Assembly (NCBI GenBank): GCA_030710605.1
Contig: CP092869.1
Coordinates: 13,771,295 to 13,835,294 of the forward strand
From: Cordylochernes scorpioides
Taxonomy: Eukaryota > Arthropoda > Arachnida > Pseudoscorpiones > Chernetidae
Length of the DNA stretch: 64,000 bases
Direction: 5' to 3'
A model generated the notes under the pieces. It searched no databases and was not told where the DNA came from. It worked only from the letters and a program-made list of their open reading frames with translations. The position numbers and the translations under genes were made by a program. The first letter of the stretch is position 1, and every line of letters starts with the position of its first letter. Of the stretch, positions 10,262 through 59,885 are shown piece by piece.

Positions 10262-10940
10262 ACATTGAATGAAATTACAATTATATATAAAACGGTATAC
10301 CTTGATCTGTTAAAGAAATAACAATTTTTCTAAATATTTAAAGAGATTGTTACCTCTTTATCAAATTTTGGCGTCTATTTTGAAACATAGGAGAGATGGC
10401 CTTTCCTTTTTAAGAGAATAGGTGCTCCTTTTTGCCTATTGGAGTGTTTTTCGTCTACAATTTCGTGTATAGAAGAAGATAAGAATGGGGTAGAGATACC
10501 AATGGGAACTCAATCGATCTGTACAAGAACTACGCGGTAGATGCTGGGTGGTCGAAGCAGGTATCTACTTTACGATTCGTTCCAGATTCACGCCTCTTCA
10601 CATCGCTGTGACACCCAGTTGTCAATTTCTTGGCGGTGGCTCCTTTGATATCGAGTTCTGTAATGGATAGATCGTCACATCATTCAATCTATCTTTCTCT
10701 ATTTCAAATCCAATTTCCAACATACAATACGTTATTATTTTAACTTAGTGTTTAGATGGGACTTTGGGGAAAGACATATTTATACATTAATAATCTTCAT
10801 CATCTTTCTTATCTCCACAAATTCAATTCTTGAATATAGATAGAACGCTATAACCTTGTGTTTAAATTGTGAAATATAAATAGGGATTTGGAAGCTAATA
10901 AATTCAGTCGGATATTAGCCAAAGGTTATCTCAAAAGTTC
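10262..10940. other. No gene seen
   Basis: AT-rich sequence with a small fragment of the family A/B tail (CTTTCTTATCTCCAC near 10802). Nothing else is recognised. Confidence 0.4.
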
Positions 10941-11165
10941 GAGACTGATAGCAAACAAGTACCATGAGGGAAAGTTGAAAAGCACTTTGAAGAGAGAGAG
11001 AGTTCAATAGTACGTGAAACCGTTCAGAGGTAAACGGGTGGGGCCTAGAACGGGAGCCCGCAGGGTCTTCGATTACACCTCTTTACAGTATTTGGATCCC
11101 TGTCCAACGGGACGTCACAACTGGTTGAGTTTGAGCTGTCGTGCGGATGCGTCCGATGTCTTTCC
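10941..11165 (+). pseudogene. 28S rRNA fragment (D2 region), degenerate
   Basis: Begins GAGACTGATAGCAAACAAGT, then ACCATGAGGGAAAGTTGAAA, GTACGTGAAACCGTTCAGAG and GTAAACGGGTGGGGCC. This is the highly conserved core before the D2 expansion of eukaryotic large-subunit rRNA. It is followed by D2-like sequence (CTGTCCAACGGGACGTCAC, GCTGTCGTGCGGATGCGTCC). Substitutions at conserved positions (ACCATGAGG for ACCGTGAGG, an extra AG in the GAGAGAG run, AACTGG for a GACCCG-like site) and the absence of flanking rRNA show a dispersed dead fragment rather than rDNA. The GC-rich open frame at 11014-11253 is only its shadow. Confidence 0.85.
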
Positions 11166-11305
11166 CACGGGATCGGTGCTGTTACAGGCGTTTTTCTTAA
11201 AACGTTGTTTTCCTTATTACTTAGCGAATAATATTATTACAGCGAATACATAATAATATATAATACAATTACTTTATTATGATACATTAGCGCGCCATCT
11301 GTTAT

Positions 11306-11435
11306 GAAAATTAGAAACTATTATAGACGCGTATGATTCTTTTTAAAATTAAACAATTTCCATTGCAGTAAGGACAGTAGAAATTGTTTAAATTTTAAAA
11401 AGAATCATACGCGTCTAAAATAGTTTCTAATTTTC
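11306..11435. repeat. Foldback, about 55-bp arms, 19-bp loop
   Basis: The left arm 11306-11360 is nearly perfectly complementary to 11380-11435, with the loop at 11361-11379 (CATTGCAGTAAGGACAGTA). The same terminal sequence bounds the large palindrome at 46158-46571, so this is a short internally deleted member of that family. Confidence 0.85.
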
Positions 11436-15689: not shown

Positions 15690-15702
15690 ACATTAATAGA
15701 TA

Positions 15703-16014
15703 TGGAGGTCGGTGGAAGGATGGTCTAAACCGTTGGTTTTTGACCGCTACGACCCGGGTTCGATTCCCGCATTGGACACTTTTTTCTGACTGAAAATTTG
15801 CTCCAATGGCCCCCGATTCTTGCAAAAGTCCAACCCCACCAGCGAGTGCAAGTAACTAAACGGGGCTCTGGCACATTTGTAAGTGCAAAGTCGAACTGCT
15901 TTTCACATGTGTAGACATGTGGTGCACTTACAGTAAAAGCAGTCGCCTACTTCTACCCACCATGATTATCATGGCCTGTACCACGTGTACTAGGGATATA
16001 TAAGCAAAAAAAAA
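15703..16014 (+). mobile_element. tRNA-derived SINE (family T), full-length copy 1
   Basis: A 312-bp SINE with a 13-bp target duplication ACATTAATAGATA at 15690-15702 and 16015-16027. The tRNA-like head at 15707-15778 has an A-box region (GTGGAAGGATGGTCTAAACC) and a clear B box GGGTTCGATTCCC. The body is conserved among copies and ends in a ten-A tail (16005-16014). A 7-nt loop around TTTTTGA in the tRNA-like part suggests a vestigial anticodon arm. It probably was mobilised by a LINE; which one is not visible. Confidence 0.92.
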
Positions 16015-16027
16015 ACATTAATAGATA

Positions 16028-16270
16028 AACACCTCTTTGGCAAATACTGAGGATTTCATAGATCCCGTGCGGATCTGACGATCTGACCTTGGACTGATGA
16101 GGGCCATTAGCCTAAAACTACGGTCTTCAGGTGGATGCTCTGAATTTGCCTAACCTGGTGTAGTGGCTTTGTCACCGACCCGATGCTGCTAGTTTGCGAA
16201 GACAGTCAATAGGTGGTTCTTAGTTTAAACGTTTATTTTGACGGGAGAAATGTCCTTTCTTATTATTGAC
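16028..16270 (+). mobile_element. Hammerhead-bearing element, diverged copy
   Basis: Aligns with the minus strand of 35249-35526 over the ribozyme region, the GTGGCTTTGTCACCGA segment (about 16163), the GCTAGTTTGCG segment and the TATTTTGACGGGAGA end (about 16231-16246). The 5' arm is missing or altered, so no foldback is seen. It abuts the 3' target duplication of the SINE at 15703-16014, so the SINE inserted at or in its edge. Confidence 0.6.
16088..16131 (+). ncRNA. Hammerhead ribozyme motif, degenerate
   Basis: Stem I CTTGGA (16088) with TTCAGG (16126), two G-U pairs. Core CTGATGA at 16094-16100. Stem II GGGC-CATTA-GCCT. Then AAAA where GAAA is required. Stem III A-C/G-T around TACG, and cleavage triplet GTC at 16123-16125. 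The G12-to-A change should abolish activity. It is a homologue of the intact motif at 35382-35436. Confidence 0.65.
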
Positions 16271-17960: not shown

Positions 17961-18627
17961 TGTTGCACCAGGTTACAGCTTGTCAGACTCTTCAACCTTC
18001 ATTCTCTCATGTACCGTGTCTTGCATCTTACCAGAGCGTTTTCCAACCATCCTATAAAATTTATATAAGGGAATGGGAGTCGGTGGAAGGCTGGTTAAAC
18101 CGTTTGGTTTTCGACTACTACGACTCGGGTTCGATTCCCGTATTGGACACTTTTTTCTGATTTAAAAAAATGCTCCAATGGCCCCCGATTCTTGCAAAAG
18201 TCTAACCCCACCAGCGAGTTCAAGTAACCAAACGGGGCTCTGGCACATTTGTAAGTGCAAAGTCGAACTGCTTTTCACATGTGTAGACATGTGGTGCACT
18301 TACAGTAAAAGCAGTCGCTAACTACCCACCATGATTATCATGGCCTGTACCACGTGTACTAGAGATAATTAATATATATATGTATATGGGAATAATGAGA
18401 TAACTCTACTTTAAGTAGCCTCCAGAAATTTATTTCTCACATCAAAGAGAGCAGTGAAGTCATACAGTGTACCTAAATACAAATGGTGATTTTTATAATA
18501 CATAAATTAGTTTATAATATATGTATATTCTGTTTAATAAATATAAAAATATAAATTTAAATTTAAAATATATGAAAAATAATATCACAAATTAAGATAA
18601 AATAGGTGCCTTAGCCATGATGCAACA
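17961..18627 (+). mobile_element. Solo LTR-like element, copy 2, split by a SINE
   Basis: Same family as 5662-6005: starts TGTTGCACCAGG, ends ATGCAACA, again between ATAT (17957-17960 and 18628-18631). The LTR is interrupted at about 18075 by a tRNA-SINE; the two halves join across GGGAAT and then align with copy 1. Confidence 0.7.
18075..18380 (+). mobile_element. tRNA-derived SINE family T, copy 2
   Basis: tRNA-like head with B box GGGTTCGATTCCC (about 18127) and a body matching copy 1. It lacks a long A tail. An imperfect duplication (ATATAAGGGAAT left, GTATATGGGAAT right) flanks it inside the solo LTR. Confidence 0.9.
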
Positions 18628-27593: not shown

Positions 27594-28410
27594 GGAAAAT
27601 AGATTTACCATCACAATACCTTAGATATCTCAGAAGAAATCATTAGATAAATTTTATAGGTTCTGGATGCCCTAAAAATGTAAATAGACATATTCCATAA
27701 AATAGTTCAATTACAAACCAATTTAAAAAATTCAGTTATAAATATCCACGTTCGTTTTTGTAAATATTTCTGGTGGGATTAAGTCGATATTATAGTAAGC
27801 CCGTTGAAGAGCGATTAACGCTTGAAAGCTAGCGTTTTTTTTAAATAAAAAAGATACCCATTGTGAGAATATATTTGTAATTTTAATACTTTTTTCATAA
27901 TTTTATCATGAATAGAGACAATACGCTTGCTCATCACTTAGTAAGAAACTTTACTTGGATGATAAAACATGAAACCAGTTTTAGCAAATTTAGACAAAAA
28001 ACTAAGCTGTATACCATGATTTTGGGCTTTGGCCCTCATCAACAAAAGATAAGCAATGAGGAAAGTTTACAGAGTAGCAAAATATTTAAAAAAAATGATG
28101 CTCTGTTAATAAAATAATACTTTGCTACAATATAATTACGTACGCAACATAACAGTGAAAGAAAAACCTCTAGAAACAGTTTGTGGTGACAAAAAGATTG
28201 TCTAAAGATTTGTCCAAAATTAACATAACTAAAGTCATATATTGATTACTTTAAAAGAAATTACATAAAAATAAATAAAACTTTCCTAAAAGTTTCCAAA
28301 ACATTCGATTTCAGAAATTATCGATAATTCGATAAATTTACAATTTCATTCTGCCCTAGTTTAAATTTTTCTTTCCCTTTCAATATAAGATTACAAGTAA
28401 CAAATTTAAT
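27594..28410. other. AT-rich spacer with one foldback arm
   Basis: 27795-27905 is a single arm of the foldback family at 17338 (GCCCGTTGAAGAGCGATTAA, CTTGAAAGCTAGCG). 28010-28130 resembles 29755-29850 (AAGATAAGCAATGAGG). No convincing gene. Confidence 0.45.
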
Positions 28411-28800
28411 GGCGCAAGCCATCAGCAACTTTCAGTTGCACGATAAGTAGATGCCTTTTTCAGAATATATGCACCTTATCCCAGTACAATATCACATTTG
28501 TACTATTTTTTACGCGGTCTCACACAATTCTGGCCTTAACTACCCGTTTCATGATTTTTCAGGATGCCTTGAATGACTAGTTTTTTGGTCATTGAGGTAC
28601 AGCTTTCACCACGCTGATGAGGGCCAACAGTCCTAAACGCGTCCGTGGTTAGCTTTTCTTGATTAATCAAGAATGGGTATTTGACCAATTCTGGAATAAT
28701 TCAAAATCAACAAGAATAGTTGATATTTATTCCGATAGGTGGCGCAAGCGATAAACAACTTTCAGTTGCACGATAAGGAAATGCTATTTTCATAATTTAC
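28411..28800 (+). mobile_element. Retrozyme/Penelope-like repeat unit with hammerhead
   Basis: A 60-bp sequence (GGCGCAAGCCATCAGCAACT, TTCAGTTGCACGATAAG) occurs at 28411-28470 and again at 28741-28800, 330 bp apart, with a hammerhead motif between. Tandem units of about 300 bp with type I hammerheads are known for animal retrozymes and Penelope-like pseudo-LTRs. A related inverted copy is at 34610-34870. No protein is encoded. Confidence 0.55.
28608..28649 (+). ncRNA. Hammerhead ribozyme motif, one core base lost
   Basis: Stem I ACCACG/CGTGGT, 6 perfect pairs (28608-28613 with 28644-28649). Core CTGATGA at 28614-28620. Stem II GGGC-CAACA-GTCC. TAAA replaces GAAA at 28634-28637. Then CGC and GTC (28641-28643). 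G12 is the general base, so the T should abolish cleavage. The ACGCGT around stem III is self-complementary, as in dimerising Penelope hammerheads. Confidence 0.72.
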
Positions 28801-34609: not shown

Positions 34610-34870
34610 TTGAGACAATTCTGGTTTTATGGTAAAATGTATTTATCAGCTCAAGGTCAGGTAGAATTAAGGGGAAAAACATATCTTAATCTTTGTAATT
34701 GAACGTTGCTGATAGCTTTCGACATCTATCGGAATAAATATAAATTCAAGGTTGAACTATTTTTATTCCAGGATATTTACTATAAACATTTCACTTAGTA
34801 AATATTGAAAAACCAAATACGTTTGCGTACTCGTTTCGGACTGTTGGCCCTCGAAAGCGTAAGGTAGGCT
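34610..34870 (-). mobile_element. Hammerhead-bearing repeat, inverted relative of 28411
   Basis: The minus strand shares ATCAGCAACGTTCAAT and TTTATTCCGATAG with 28411-28800 and ends in a degraded hammerhead (34824-34866). Confidence 0.55.
34824..34866 (-). ncRNA. Hammerhead ribozyme relic
   Basis: On the minus strand: CTTTCGA (for CTGANGA), stem II GGGC-CAACA-GTCC identical to that at 28621, then an intact GAAAC. Stem I is reduced. The first core strand is mutated here but intact at 28614, while the second is intact here but mutated there, so the family ancestor probably had both. Confidence 0.55.
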
Positions 34871-35236
34871 GTGTCTCAATGATCAAACAAGATCATAAAG
34901 ACTTTATAAAATCGAGGAAAGTGTATCTTATACCGAAAGTGCGTCAAAATGCAGAAATATGCGGTGAAATGGAATGAATTTTCTACACATTTTAGTGTCA
35001 CACACACAATATCTAAAGGTACGGCATTAAGAAACTGAAAACATCTCGGATCACCTACAAATTTGTCCCAGCCACTTTGCCAGCTAAACACCTCTTTAGA
35101 AAATAGTGAAGATTCCATCTTTGTGCATCACTATTTCCAACTTATAGTTATCGAAAAATCGTTTGACAATGATTGATAATTTAAAAATATGTTTTTTTTT
35201 TTCTGTTTCAAATTTATTTCAGTTCTAATATACATT
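34871..35236. other. Spacer, no gene recognised
   Basis: An 80-codon minus-strand frame (34876-35118) has no recognised features. AACACCTCTTTAGAAAATAGTG near 35089 resembles AACACCTCTTTGGCAAATACTG at 16028, so the hammerhead family may extend this far. Confidence 0.4.
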
Positions 35237-35248
35237 ATTATCATAAAT

Positions 35249-35526
35249 CCAAAGAGACAAAGGTCGCCTCTCCCGTCAAAATAGACGTCAAAACCAGACG
35301 ACATCTATTGACCGTCACCGCAAACTAGCGGCCTCGGATCGGTGACAAAGCCACAACACCAGCTTTGGCAAACTGAAAAGCGTCCACCTAGAGACCATGG
35401 TTTCGGGCTAATGGCCCTCGTCAGCCTAGGGCGGACTTTAATGGCGTCTGGTTTTGACGTCTATTTTGACGGGAGAGGCGACCTTTGTCTCTTTGGATCA
35501 ATATCCTCCCGGCAAAATTTCCATCT
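35249..35526 (-). mobile_element. 278-bp foldback retroelement carrying a hammerhead ribozyme
   Basis: Flanked by a perfect 12-bp duplication ATTATCATAAAT (35237-35248 and 35527-35538). Inside are 54-bp perfectly complementary arms (35247-35300 and 35445-35498, containing TTTTGACGGGAGAGGCGACC) and between them about 144 bp with the ribozyme. Inverted partial pseudo-LTRs plus a type I hammerhead are hallmarks of Penelope-like elements. Here no RT or GIY-YIG sequence remains, so it is a non-autonomous derivative. Perfect arms and duplication suggest a young or gene-converted copy. A diverged relative lies at 16028-16270. Confidence 0.85.
35382..35436 (-). ncRNA. Type I hammerhead ribozyme, apparently intact
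   Basis: Read on the minus strand: stem I outer GTCC/GGAC (35436-35433, 35385-35382), a small internal loop, stem I inner CCTAGG/TCTAGG (35430-35425, 35392-35387, one G-U). Core CTGACGA (35424-35418; position 7 may be any base). Stem II GGGC-CATTA-GCCC (35417-35405). GAAA (35404-35401), stem III A-C/G-T closed by CATG, and cleavage triplet GTC (35395-35393), so cutting is expected between 35393 and 35392. All invariant positions are present. ACCATGGT is self-complementary, allowing a dimeric stem III. It would self-cleave transcripts of the element. Confidence 0.85.
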
Positions 35527-35539
35527 ATTATCATAAATG

Positions 35540-38094: not shown

Positions 38095-38405
38095 TTTTTT
38101 TTTTTTTTGCTTATCCCTAGTACACGTGGTACAGGCCATGATTCTCATGGTGGGTAGTTAGCGACTGCTTTTTACTGTAAGCGCACCACATGTCTACACA
38201 TGTGAAAAGCAGTTCGACTTTGCACTTACAAATGTGCCAGAGCCCCGTTTGGTTACTTGCACTCGCTGGTGGGGTTGGACTTTTGCAAGAATCGGGGGCC
38301 ATTGGAGCATTTTTTTTTTAAACAGAAAAAGTGTCCAATGCGAGAATCGAACCCGGGTCGTAGTGGTCGAAAACCAAACGGTTTAACCAGCCTTCCACCG
38401 ACCCC
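38095..38405 (-). mobile_element. tRNA-derived SINE family T, copy 4
   Basis: The T-run at 38093-38109 is the reversed A tail. B box GGGTTCGATTCTC on the minus strand (plus strand GAGAATCGAACCC, 38342-38354). Full-length, close to copy 3. Confidence 0.9.
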
Positions 38406-38810
38406 TTTATCTTTAATAATAAACTTTTAAAAACATTTTGACCATTGTCAAAGCAAAACCAAACAAAAATATCAAAATGAACTAAACAAAGTCGAAGAGT
38501 GGTTTTCTTTCATTGGTTTCTCAACGCCAGTAATAACAAACATTATTTAAAAGAGCTTCTTTTTGTTAGTTTTTTAATCTTAATGATCGAATCTAAAAAA
38601 TATTCGAGAAAAAATAGTTAAAAGTTGCATATCGGTGTTAGTTTATTAATTGATATTCTTAAAATAGTGTCACGTTTGTGAATTTTATAATTAATTATTT
38701 CTTTTTTATTTTCAATGAATTTTGTATATTAATTTAAAATGTCATTTTTTTGTTATCATCATCACATACAATGTAATTTTATATATATTTGATATATGAA
38801 TTGAATATCG

Positions 38811-46118: not shown

Positions 46119-46157
46119 TTATATATATAATATGATGCACTAGCGCGCCATCTGTTA

Positions 46158-46571
46158 TCAAAATTCGAAACTATTATAAAGGCGTAAGATTCTTTTTGAA
46201 ATTAAACAATTGCTACTGCCCTTACTACAATGGAAAAATTATTGGGAGGGCCTGGCTCATCAGTGGTGAACCCTCCCAGCGGTTTCGCCAGTTTAATCTA
46301 CCATACCGCCGTTATATTGCATTTTTGGAACTTCCTTTCATAGTTCTTCTAAAATACCCATTCCAAGAGTCTACTAACAGTATCACTATAAAAGGAAGTT
46401 CCAAAAATGCAATATAACGGCGGTATGGTAGATTAAACTGGCGAAACCGCTGGGAGGGTTCACCACTGATGAGCCAGGCCCTCCCAATAATTTTTCCATT
46501 GCAGTAAGGACAGTAGAAATTGTTTAATTTCAAAAAGAATCTTACCTCTTTATAATAGTTTCGAATTTTGA
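46158..46571. repeat. Large palindrome, about 185-bp arms, containing the structured repeat twice
   Basis: Left arm 46158-46342, right arm 46387-46571, nearly perfect complements, with a 44-bp centre. Each arm holds the structured repeat (CTGGCGAAACCGCTGGGAGG, CACTGATGAGCCAG, GCCCTCCCAATA). The outer 60 bp match the short foldback at 11306-11435. Confidence 0.92.
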
Positions 46572-46574
46572 TAT

Positions 46575-56999: not shown

Positions 57000-57365
57000 C
57001 ATTCCATAAGTGTAAGAAGAAGACGGACTAAGTCTATATAAACATAGACATTCATCGGATGAAAGCGTGTAATTTTAATCTTTCTGTATTCAAAAATCAG
57101 AAATCTACCGCTGAAAGAGTTTTTCAATTCGTTGTATAGACGCGCCAATTGTAGCAGTGTTCCTACCTGGGAATATTTGAGAAGGCCGCCTCGGTGTAAG
57201 TCGATCTCTCCATGTACCATATTTACCTGTTCATTAGTGGGAGCGGGGATCATTTTTCCTGGGGTCAATTTCATATTCCACGGAGCGCGTGCCAGCCCTA
57301 GGTGCGTGCTCTACAAATTGTACCGAGGGAGTCATGCTGTGTTTATTTATTCCGTGCTGGGTTGT
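57000..57365 (-). other. Possible exon sequence beside the minisatellite
   Basis: GC-richer than the surroundings. On the minus strand two frames are open: one ends EYEIDPRKNDPRSH, the other reads MKLTPGKMIPAPTNEQ then continues to 56999. AACAGGTAAATA (about 57225) and CCCAGGTAGGAA (about 57160) look like splice donors. Function unknown; the long frame continuing into the array is not evidence of coding. Confidence 0.25.
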
Positions 57366-59335
57366 CTGTACCCACGGTTGTATTTTTTCCTCTGTGCCCA
57401 CGTGTATTGGTCTGTACCCACGGTGGTATGTTTTCCTCTGTACCCACCGTGTATTTGTCTGTACCCACGGTGGTATGTTTTCCTCTGTACCCACCGTGTA
57501 TTTGTCTGTACCCACGGTGGTATGTTTTCCTCTGTACCCACCGTGTTTGTCTATACCAACCGTGTATAGATCTGTACCCACGTGTATTGGTCTGTACCCA
57601 CGGTAGTATGTTTTCCTCTGTACCCACCGTGTTTGTCTATACCAACCGTGTATAGATCTGTACCCACGTGTATTGGTCTGTACCCACGGTTGTATGTTTT
57701 CCTCTGTACCCACGGTTATATGTTTTCCTCTGTACCCACGGTTGTATGTTTTCCTCTGTGCCCACGTGTATTGGTCTGTACCCACGGTGGTATGTTTTCC
57801 TCTGTACCCACCGTGTATTTGTCTGTACCCACGGTGGTATGTTTTCCTCTGTACCCACCGTGTTTGTCTATACCAACCGTGTATAGATCTGTACCCACGT
57901 GTATTGGTCTGTACCCACGGTAGTATGTTTTCCTCTGTACCCACGTGTATTGGTCTGTACCCACGAAGTTTGTCTGTACCCACGGTTGTATGTTTTCCTC
58001 TGTACCCACGGTTATATGTTTTCCTCTGTACCCACGGTTGTATGTTTTCCTCTGTGCCCACGTGTATTGGTCTGTACCCACGGTGGTATGTTTTCCTCTG
58101 TACCCACCGTGTATTTGTCTGTACCCACGGTGGTATGTTTTCCTCTGTACCCACGTGTATTGGTCTGTACCCACGATGTTTGTCTGTACCCACGGTTGTA
58201 TGTTTTCCTCTGTACCCACGGTTATATGTTTTCCTCTGTACCCACCGTGTATTTGTCTGTACCCACGGTAGTATGTTTTCCTCTGTGCCCACGTGTATTG
58301 GTCTGTACCCACGGTTATATGTTTTCCTCTGTACCCACGGTTGTATGTTTTCCTCTGTACCCACGGTTATATGTTTTCCTCTGTACCCACCGTGTATTTG
58401 TCTGTACCCACGGTAGTATGTTTTCCTCTGTACCCACGTGTATTGGTCTGTACCCACGATGTTTGTCTGTACCCACGGTTGTATGTTTTCCTCTGTACCC
58501 ACGGTTATATGTTTTCCTCTGTACCCACGGTTGTATGTTTTCCTCTGTGCCCACGTGTATTGGTCTGTACCCACGGTTATATGTTTTCCTCTGTACCCAC
58601 GGTTGTATGTTTTCCTCTGTACCCACGGTTATATGTTTTCCTCTGTACCCACCGTGTATTTGTCTGTACCCACGGTAGTATGTTTTCCTCTGTGCCCACG
58701 TGTATTGGTCTGTACCCACGGTTATATGTTTTCCTCTGTACCCACGGTTGTATGTTTTCCTCTGTACCCACGGTTATATGTTTTCCTCTGTACCCACCGT
58801 GTATTTGTCTGTACCCACGGTAGTATGTTTTCCTCTGTACCCACCGTGTATTGGTCTGTACCCACGATGTTTGTCTGTACCCACGGTTGTATGTTTTCCT
58901 CTGTACCCACGGTTATATGTTTTCCTCTGTACCCACGGTTGTATGTTTTCCTCTGTGCCCACGTGTATTGGTCTGTACCCACGGTTATATGTTTTCCTCT
59001 GTACCCACGGTTGTATGTTTTCCTCTGTACCCACGGTAGTATGTTTTCCTCTGTACCCACGTGTATTGGTCTGTACCCACGGTAGTATGTTTTCCTCTGT
59101 ACCCACGTGTATTGGTCTGTACCCACGATGTTTGTCTGTACCCACGGTTATATGTTTTCCTCTGTACCCACGGTTGTATGTTTTCCTCTGTACCCACGGT
59201 TATATGTTTTCCTCTGTACCCACGTTTGTATGTTTTTCTCTATACCCACGATGTTTGTCTGTAACCACGGTGGTATGTTTTCCTCTGTACCCACGTGTAT
59301 TTATCTGTACCAACCGTGTTTGTCTGTACCCACGG
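57366..59335. repeat. 1.97-kb mosaic minisatellite, 26-bp and 20-bp units
   Basis: Units CTGTACCCACGGTTGTATG+TTTTCCT (26 bp; variants GGTGG, GGTAG, GGTTA) alternate with CTGTACCCACGTGTATTGGT (20 bp) and related units. Longer blocks repeat. Since 26 is not divisible by 3, each strand cycles through all frames every 78 bp. As the unit has no stop in that cycle, several frames on both strands stay open for hundreds of codons (up to 446). I do not regard these as genes. Confidence 0.95.
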
Positions 59336-59885
59336 TGTTGCATTTTGTTAGGTTCATCAACCTTTATCGTCTATTCGCTCAGCTGTCTTTCCTGAACATG
59401 TTTTAGACATATATTGTAGATTACGATGCTTCCATAGATAGAGAGATAAAGGAACTTTGTTGTTATTTTTTTACTACAAACATATTTACAAAATAATAAC
59501 TTCTTAAATCATCTATATGACCTACAATTTGAACTTTCCTTATAATACGCGTGCAGAAGCACAAATCAGACTAAGAGATATTAAGAGGGAATAAATAATT
59601 AAGATTAAGCCTAAAATAATTCAAGTATATTATCAAAGTGTAGTTTTGAGATAGGCGTACTTTAGTATTCCAAAGGTTGAGAGTTACTGATAGGGGTAAT
59701 TGTAGACCACCTAGAGTAGCCATATCTGAGAGACTTATATTTATACAAATTACTTCATATTCCCCAGCAAGTTCACTGCCATCAGTGAGTACAAGTAAGC
59801 AAATGGTATTCCTTTGTGAGTTTAATGGTAAAATTTGAATCTGTGCATATGTAGACATGTAGTCTACATACAGTATCAACATTTT
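59336..59885. other. Spacer with an old SINE scrap
   Basis: 59766-59880 contains AAGTTCACTGCCATCAGTGA, GAGTACAAGTAAGCAAATGG and TATGTAGACATGTAGT, a diverged middle part of the tRNA-SINE family T. Confidence 0.5.

Follow-up and report, generated by a model that had tools for sequence, protein, structure and literature searches.

A hammerhead foldback of the pseudoscorpion Cordylochernes scorpioides is one copy of an abundant retrozyme-type repeat with the insertion signature of Penelope-like elements

The foldback unit

The window, a stretch of 64,000 nucleotides of contig CP092869.1 of Cordylochernes scorpioides, contains a 278-bp unit in which a minus-strand hammerhead ribozyme lies between inverted arms, and the whole is flanked by a direct repeat (Table 1). 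The original prediction had described 54-bp perfect arms, which are recovered here as the first part of slightly longer arms. The direct repeat, TATTATCATAAAT, had been described as a perfect 12-bp duplication; it is present, but a repeat search gives its length as 13 nt, one more than claimed. None of the 36 ORFs of at least 100 aa in the window ORF list overlaps the unit, in agreement with its description as a protein-less insertion with a target duplication. Mapping to the monomer of the genomic repeat described below (positions prefixed with R) resolves the unit into two stretches of opposite orientation that meet head to head, and only one of its two ends carries a tail.

Table 1. Coordinates in the window of the foldback unit, its parts and related copies
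Feature	Position	Strand	Remarks
Inverted arms	35247-35304 (left), 35441-35498 (right)	.	Repeat search: 57/58 complementary, first 54 without mismatch
Target duplication, left copy	35236-35248	.	Direct repeat; last two bases overlap the element end
Target duplication, right copy	35526-35538	.	Direct repeat; first three bases overlap the element end
First stretch (putative cDNA)	35247-35439	-	192 nt, R95-R286, 96.9% to consensus; contains the hammerhead; short end at 35247 (mapping to monomer)
Head-to-head junction	35440	.	Single unassigned base between the two stretches
Second stretch (putative cDNA)	35441-35528	+	88 nt, R229-R316, 97.7% to consensus; long end at 35528
Tail, 30 nt	35499-35528	+	Adjoins the right arm; left arm without tail (mapping)
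Hammerhead ribozyme	35381-35437	-	Core intact, helix III minimal; predicted cleavage 35393/35392
Separate fragment of the hammerhead repeat	35061-35118	+	R14-R71, 89.7% (mapping)
Older decayed single-orientation copy of the hammerhead repeat	16023-16248	+	R35-R264, 78.4%; hammerhead core broken

A phage collection contains nothing that matches the unit. In viral contigs, 36 loci share a 15-mer of the arm; these contain only short matches to the unit (best E 0.025 among the first 20 rows) and no match to the remaining window sequence. Rfam also gives several names below the gathering score; those that fall over foldbacks (MIR8622, MIR393 and mir-2) were taken as scores for long hairpins.

The hammerhead ribozyme

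The invariant core of a type I hammerhead consists of CUGANGA, GAAA and UH, surrounded by three helices, of which helix I is the open one. On the minus strand of the unit, CTGACGA begins at 35424, with GGGC-CATTA-GCCC, GAAA, CCATGG and TC after it, which bears out the predicted intact core; by the usual hammerhead rule, cleavage in this copy would presumably fall between 35393 and 35392. A structural descriptor finds this as the single hammerhead motif in the window and finds none in 40 dinucleotide shuffles. All three stems had been predicted to pair. Helix I (11 pairs and a one-base bulge) and helix II (4 pairs) do so, but in a single strand helix III is reduced to one C-G pair with the self-complementary loop CAUG. 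The internal loop for tertiary contacts that had been ascribed to stem I is not clearly present, the one-base bulge being found instead.

Since ACCAUGGU is self-complementary, two strands can pair at helix III, which has 8 pairs in the predicted dimer as opposed to one in the single strand. This dimer is predicted to take a two-hammerhead shape at -52.6 kcal/mol, compared with -22.7 for each strand alone; the best predicted fold of the single strand (-22.7 kcal/mol) is not a hammerhead, and the hammerhead fold scores -16.5. Minimal hammerheads of amphibian repeats and of Penelope-like elements (PLEs), described as working as dimers, likewise have a one-pair helix III and a self-complementary tetraloop (PMC7229834; PMC7761336).

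The covariance-model hit that the original prediction looked to did not appear. No hammerhead reaches the gathering score in an Rfam search of the window, and a 1-kb search gives none up to E = 10; a search of 72 bases alone gives HH9 at 19.9 bits (E = 0.0037) against a gathering score of 52. In 20 related loci, the sole hammerhead call (HH9, 24.1 bits, positions 13-78 of locus L113) lies outside the mapped repeat. The minimal helix III would be expected to lower Rfam scores. The core is intact in 79 of the 94 copies that span it, these copies having been chosen by similarity to queries that themselves contain the core.

A tandem hammerhead repeat in the genome

The source genome comprises 2.62 Gb in 24 contigs. 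A fragment of LSU rRNA in the window marks it as eukaryotic, and the transposon frames among the window ORFs read as those of an animal. A query with the whole unit gave 2,951 first-look candidates, the best 40 of which were scored and yielded 116 matches. At locus L056 two hammerheads lie in direct tandem 318 bp apart, and at L100 the spacing is 319; these spacings point to a 316-319-bp repeat as the basic unit. Its monomer contains the hammerhead, a spacer, the arm and the tail, plus a stretch that is absent from the window unit, and has a G+C content of 49.7%. The window unit, which had been proposed as a new minimal non-autonomous family of 278 bp, is instead one copy of this abundant hammerhead repeat of the retrozyme type.

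A one-monomer tandem query gave at least 163 matches, with 150 listed, in 31 loci. Among the matches listed, full-length rows are 97-100% identical with one exception (89%), and the largest array has up to about 11 monomers. The genome holds young tandem arrays of the 316-319-bp repeat. For mapping, 73 genome loci and three window stretches were placed on a consensus monomer treated as a circle, the origin of which lies after CCATCTAT; the window stretch around 28.0-29.4 kb has no match to this consensus. L037 is the window itself, and L038-L044 are the same places as L045-L051 and were counted once. All genome samples, whether obtained with the whole-unit, arm-free, tandem, junction, GIY-YIG or second-hammerhead query, consist of best-scored candidates and represent the closest relatives of the queries.

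Head-to-head copies and their inner junctions

The best 40 of 995 candidates of an arm-free query were scored, and 35 of these loci were newly retrieved. In 29 of the 35, an antisense stretch precedes a sense stretch, so that the two meet head to head; L106 has the same order but with a 27-nt gap, and L083, L100, L101, L102 and L115 are without it. The other five loci among the 40 scored matches are all head to head (5/5), and the same order is found in 36 of 38 loci of the whole-unit query. With the tandem query, both orientations occur in 14 of 31 loci, always head to head (14/14); 17 loci have a single orientation among the matches listed, which counts against the mechanism proposed below. 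The reverse junction, sense then antisense, was seen once, between two neighbouring inserts in L081. The idea that the window foldback is a one-off accident, raised by the copy at 16023-16248 which has no left arm, was dropped, as most loci retrieved are head to head.

Inner junctions are spread over many monomer positions and are nearly all distinct. Loci with a common inner junction are mostly duplicated regions; L051 and L070 have similar junctions and different flanks. With a 71-base query spanning the window junction, for which the best 40 of 341 candidates were scored, the window itself is the sole full-length match at 100%. Four loci span the junction at 84-88% but have other junctions, and the remaining 37 of the 42 matches listed are confined to one side. 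The original prediction expected the foldback to have moved as a unit and to be traceable as such in the genome. The genome search does find many related copies and target duplications, but the uniqueness of the window junction among scored matches, together with the diversity of junctions, indicates that the window foldback did not spread as a unit, and propagation of the foldback as such was dropped as an explanation.

Overlap of 4 nt or more occurs at 17 of 59 junctions, compared with 12.4% of 388 simulated clean random joins (p = 0.002), and inserted bases occur at 26 of 59, compared with 16.8% in the simulation. Both excesses are as end joining would leave. Loci were treated as duplicates when they had the junction, together with a 300-nt flank or both flanks, in common with a kept locus (dropped: L055, L060, L063, L089, L090, L105, L050 and L053). 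Five duplicates were removed before the 62-junction set used below and eight before the 59-junction set; none were removed before target duplications were counted.

Outer ends and target duplications

The outer ends cluster at two monomer positions, R286 (short end) and R316 (long end), 30 nt apart. In 56 de-duplicated head-to-head elements, all 45 that are assignable have one short and one long end, in either order (22 short-long, 23 long-short). The same is found in 18 of 18 assignable elements in the arm-free sample of 25, in 12 of 12 assignable arrays among 14 from the tandem query and, when wider end limits are used, in 53 of 53 elements with three unassigned. Before de-duplication, opposite ends are found in 51 of 52 assignable elements (64 in all); only L105 departs from the pattern, and its duplicate L091 has one end of each kind. 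Simulated equal-ended elements are recognised by the same pipeline, indicating that the one-of-each rule is not made by the method.

Direct repeats of at least 8 nt flank 45 of 63 elements (duplicates kept), compared with about 7% for mismatched flanks; some of them sit in TA repeats, and the length of the target duplication varies among copies. The A+T content is 75.7% in the 20 nt next to the element ends and 66.0% further out.

Relation to retrozymes and Penelope-like elements

The repeat resembles the metazoan non-LTR retrozymes, which are described as short, protein-less tandem repeats with a type I hammerhead, with thousands of candidates and target duplications longer than 4 bp (PMC7229834). 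The retrozyme definition calls for tandem repeats of about 150-450 bp with a type I hammerhead, within which the 318-319-bp spacing falls; a G+C content below 50% is stated there, compatible with the 49.7% of the monomer, which does exceed the value of 45% also given there (PMC7229834). The available text of that paper describes no inverted copies that meet head to head and carry a one-sided tail, its main text does not contain the word "inverted", and a literature search of limited coverage found no report of such retrozyme copies.

Inverted copies with a one-sided tail have been published for PLEs. Penelope inserts have inverted pLTRs, one of which may bear a tail of 31 bp, and their target duplications measure 8-10 bp; head to head is the most frequent arrangement of Penelope copies, and self-priming on an antisense template has been suggested for it (PMC3846280). 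In vitro, a purified Penelope-like protein for which a dimer is predicted cuts and extends both strands of AT-rich targets, with reverse transcription starting at two adjacent sites of the RNA, one on either side of the tail (PMC11167929). The inverted head-to-head ends with a one-sided tail of about 30 nt thus have a counterpart in the pLTR with its tail, and PLEs also share target duplications of about 8-13 nt, AT-rich targets and a minimal hammerhead (PMC3846280; PMC11167929). The hammerhead repeat carries the PLE insertion signature of inverted ends, one-sided tail and target duplication, and together with its tandem retrozyme anatomy this upholds the link to both classes drawn in the original prediction. 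A link between retrozymes and PLEs has been proposed previously (PMC7229834; PMC7761336), and PLEs have been called a strong candidate machinery for animal retrozymes (PMC7229834).

Unlike PLEs, the repeat is without a reading frame, and its signature takes the form of a rule counted across many small copies. The 278-bp unit has neither a reverse transcriptase nor a GIY-YIG frame and can only be a passenger. According to the available text of PMC11167929, the start site in vitro does not differ between strands, ribozyme mutants leave insertion unchanged and unprocessed RNA is the dominant substrate; these results do not speak for a strict one-of-each use of start sites or for a ribozyme step. 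The use of each start site once per insertion would be a point added beyond the published PLE work.

Candidate helper elements

A GIY-YIG search of the genome, with the best 150 of 17,015 candidates scored, gave 146 listed matches. Pfam confirms the GIY-YIG domain in 4 of 5 stretches tested, and finds no reverse transcriptase in the fifth stretch or in two others. In the element at C22:25102678, the GIY-YIG domain of L118 has a putative reverse transcriptase fragment downstream: one piece of 77 aa in L121 weakly matches RVT_1 (E = 1.6e-4, 21.9 bits, below the cut-off of 29.6) and has a YVDD motif. This order, with the endonuclease before the reverse transcriptase in L118/L121, recalls the Naiad PLEs. 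GIY-YIG pairs within 10 kb of each other are head to head in 11 of 11 cases among the matches listed. In L120 (G000:C1:8986700-8992300), where the endonuclease precedes a reverse transcriptase-like part, the head-to-head pair of GIY-YIG frames is 98% identical over 2.6 kb. The GIY-YIG loci L118-L120 contain neither a match to the hammerhead repeat nor a hammerhead motif found by the structural descriptor.

Proposed mechanism of insertion

The copies also carry information on their template. At 25 of 62 junctions a stretch is longer than one monomer, and 97 of 114 stretches of at least 100 nt cross the predicted cleavage site, compared with two that end there, indicating that the template was circular, multimeric or uncut. 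The two arms within an element agree at 91.7% of diagnostic sites, compared with 65.9% between elements (51 pairs; 0 of 1,000 permutations as high), so that the template of both strands would have been a single RNA, or RNAs identical in sequence.

On the sequence features described above, it is likely that a PLE enzyme used both strands of the target to prime reverse transcription of retrozyme RNA, circular or multimeric, and that the two cDNAs were then joined. Tandem copies would be transcribed, and the hammerhead, probably as a dimer formed through its self-complementary helix III, would cut the RNA into monomers. The host may close these into circles, a step that has been published for other retrozymes of metazoans. 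A PLE reverse transcriptase/endonuclease, probably acting as a dimer, would then make a staggered cut in AT-rich DNA, as we infer from the target duplications and the AT-rich flanks. Both cut strands would prime on the same RNA, the first using the site that ends at R286 and the second the site at R316, 30 nt further downstream. Both primed strands would copy the RNA antisense, sometimes for several laps; the ends, the orientation, the multi-monomer stretches and the variants common to both arms are the basis for this two-strand priming. Joining of the cDNA ends, often with overlap or a few inserted bases, would yield an antisense-sense head-to-head insert, the two ends of which form the foldback. 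The window copy would consist of 192 nt from one strand and 88 from the other.

A more specific form of this proposal, in which a pair of PLE proteins on one circular ribozyme RNA uses fixed starts 30 nt apart, one for each cut strand, appears to us evenly balanced between true and false. If true, every insertion has exactly one short and one long end, and head-to-head arrays are two rolling-circle reverse transcripts joined tip to tip. This would be a paired-start, two-sided form of target-primed reverse transcription.

The main doubt concerns the template, since two-sided target priming might also act on linear multimeric transcripts, with the ribozyme playing no part in movement. The lack of effect of ribozyme mutants in vitro and the dominance of unprocessed RNA as substrate (PMC11167929) favor linear transcripts, and the 97 stretches that cross the cleavage site fit uncut RNA as well as circles. 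Where measured, however, circles are the abundant RNA form of metazoan retrozymes (PMC7229834), and the core is preserved in most copies, albeit copies selected by queries that contain it, so that we regard linear templates as a serious but unlikely alternative. In twin priming, two separate parts of a single RNA are copied, with the start at a poly(A) tail. Such two-sided insertion by LINE-type machinery is improbable here. It resembles the present proposal in that reverse transcription is primed by both cut strands. For L1, twin priming gives inverted inserts with target duplications (PMC2837659), and LINE-like reverse transcriptase frames are present in the window by a reading of its ORF list. 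Unlike in L1 twin priming, the two strands here start at nearly the same RNA position, which places inverted repeats at the ends of the product, and they do so at two fixed adjacent internal sites and not at poly(A); the tail signature is moreover called unique to PLEs (PMC11167929).

In a snap-back or self-priming reaction, one cDNA or antisense template would fold back and be copied on itself to give inverted arms, as proposed for head-to-head Penelope copies (PMC3846280). The greater resemblance of arms within an element than between elements is as this would predict. Near-equal monomer starts at the junction are also predicted, however, and the inner positions lie less than 20 nt apart at only 3 of 62 junctions; nor does snap-back explain the one short and one long end, which renders it quite improbable. 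A foldback or MITE-like DNA transposon carrying a hammerhead and moved by a transposase is hardly credible. The inverted ends and target duplication of the window locus resemble such an element, which would have fixed ends, a common interior and a fixed duplication length; in the repeat, arm length and inner junction differ from copy to copy, multi-monomer stretches read round the repeat, and the duplication length varies.

If a PLE enzyme made the insertion from both target strands, what looked like a new mobile family would be the product of an element of a known kind. Two questions are concerned, which machinery moves animal retrozymes and how PLEs give inverted copies. A small, abundant and young repeat that shows the PLE signature with hardly an exception makes both questions countable in sequence and testable with a short RNA and a purified PLE protein. 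A two-strand scar would help explain the movement of a puzzling class of jumping genes.

A second hammerhead repeat and other features of the window

A second hammerhead family has the core CTGATGA-GGGCCAACAGCCC-GAAA-CGCG-TC and a different, paired helix I. The structural descriptor finds intact cores at L053:2050, L059:8517 and L061:8724, and a spacing of 338-339 bp occurs elsewhere in the genome. All seven loci with two orientations (7/7, within 45 listed rows) have minus then plus, head to head. Decayed copies of this second repeat lie in the window at 28410-28799 (within it 28581-28764) and at 34694-34890.

Among other features of the window, inverted repeat pairs at 1550-1949/9322-9720 (97%) and 918-1241/9931-10260 (88%) frame about 9 kb, and a long palindrome at 46156-46573 is 91% identical to its own reverse complement over about 420 nt. 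From 57362 to 59339 the window holds a long, degenerate array of units of the TCTGTACCCACGG type, with several reading frames open. A fragment of eukaryotic large-subunit rRNA at 10852-11310 (62 bits against a gathering score of 50) is apparently a stray copy. A repeat of about 300 bp is present at 15692-16015, 18061-18368 and 38099-38417, with 90-93% likeness among copies; by reading, it has a tRNA-like start and is likely to be a SINE.
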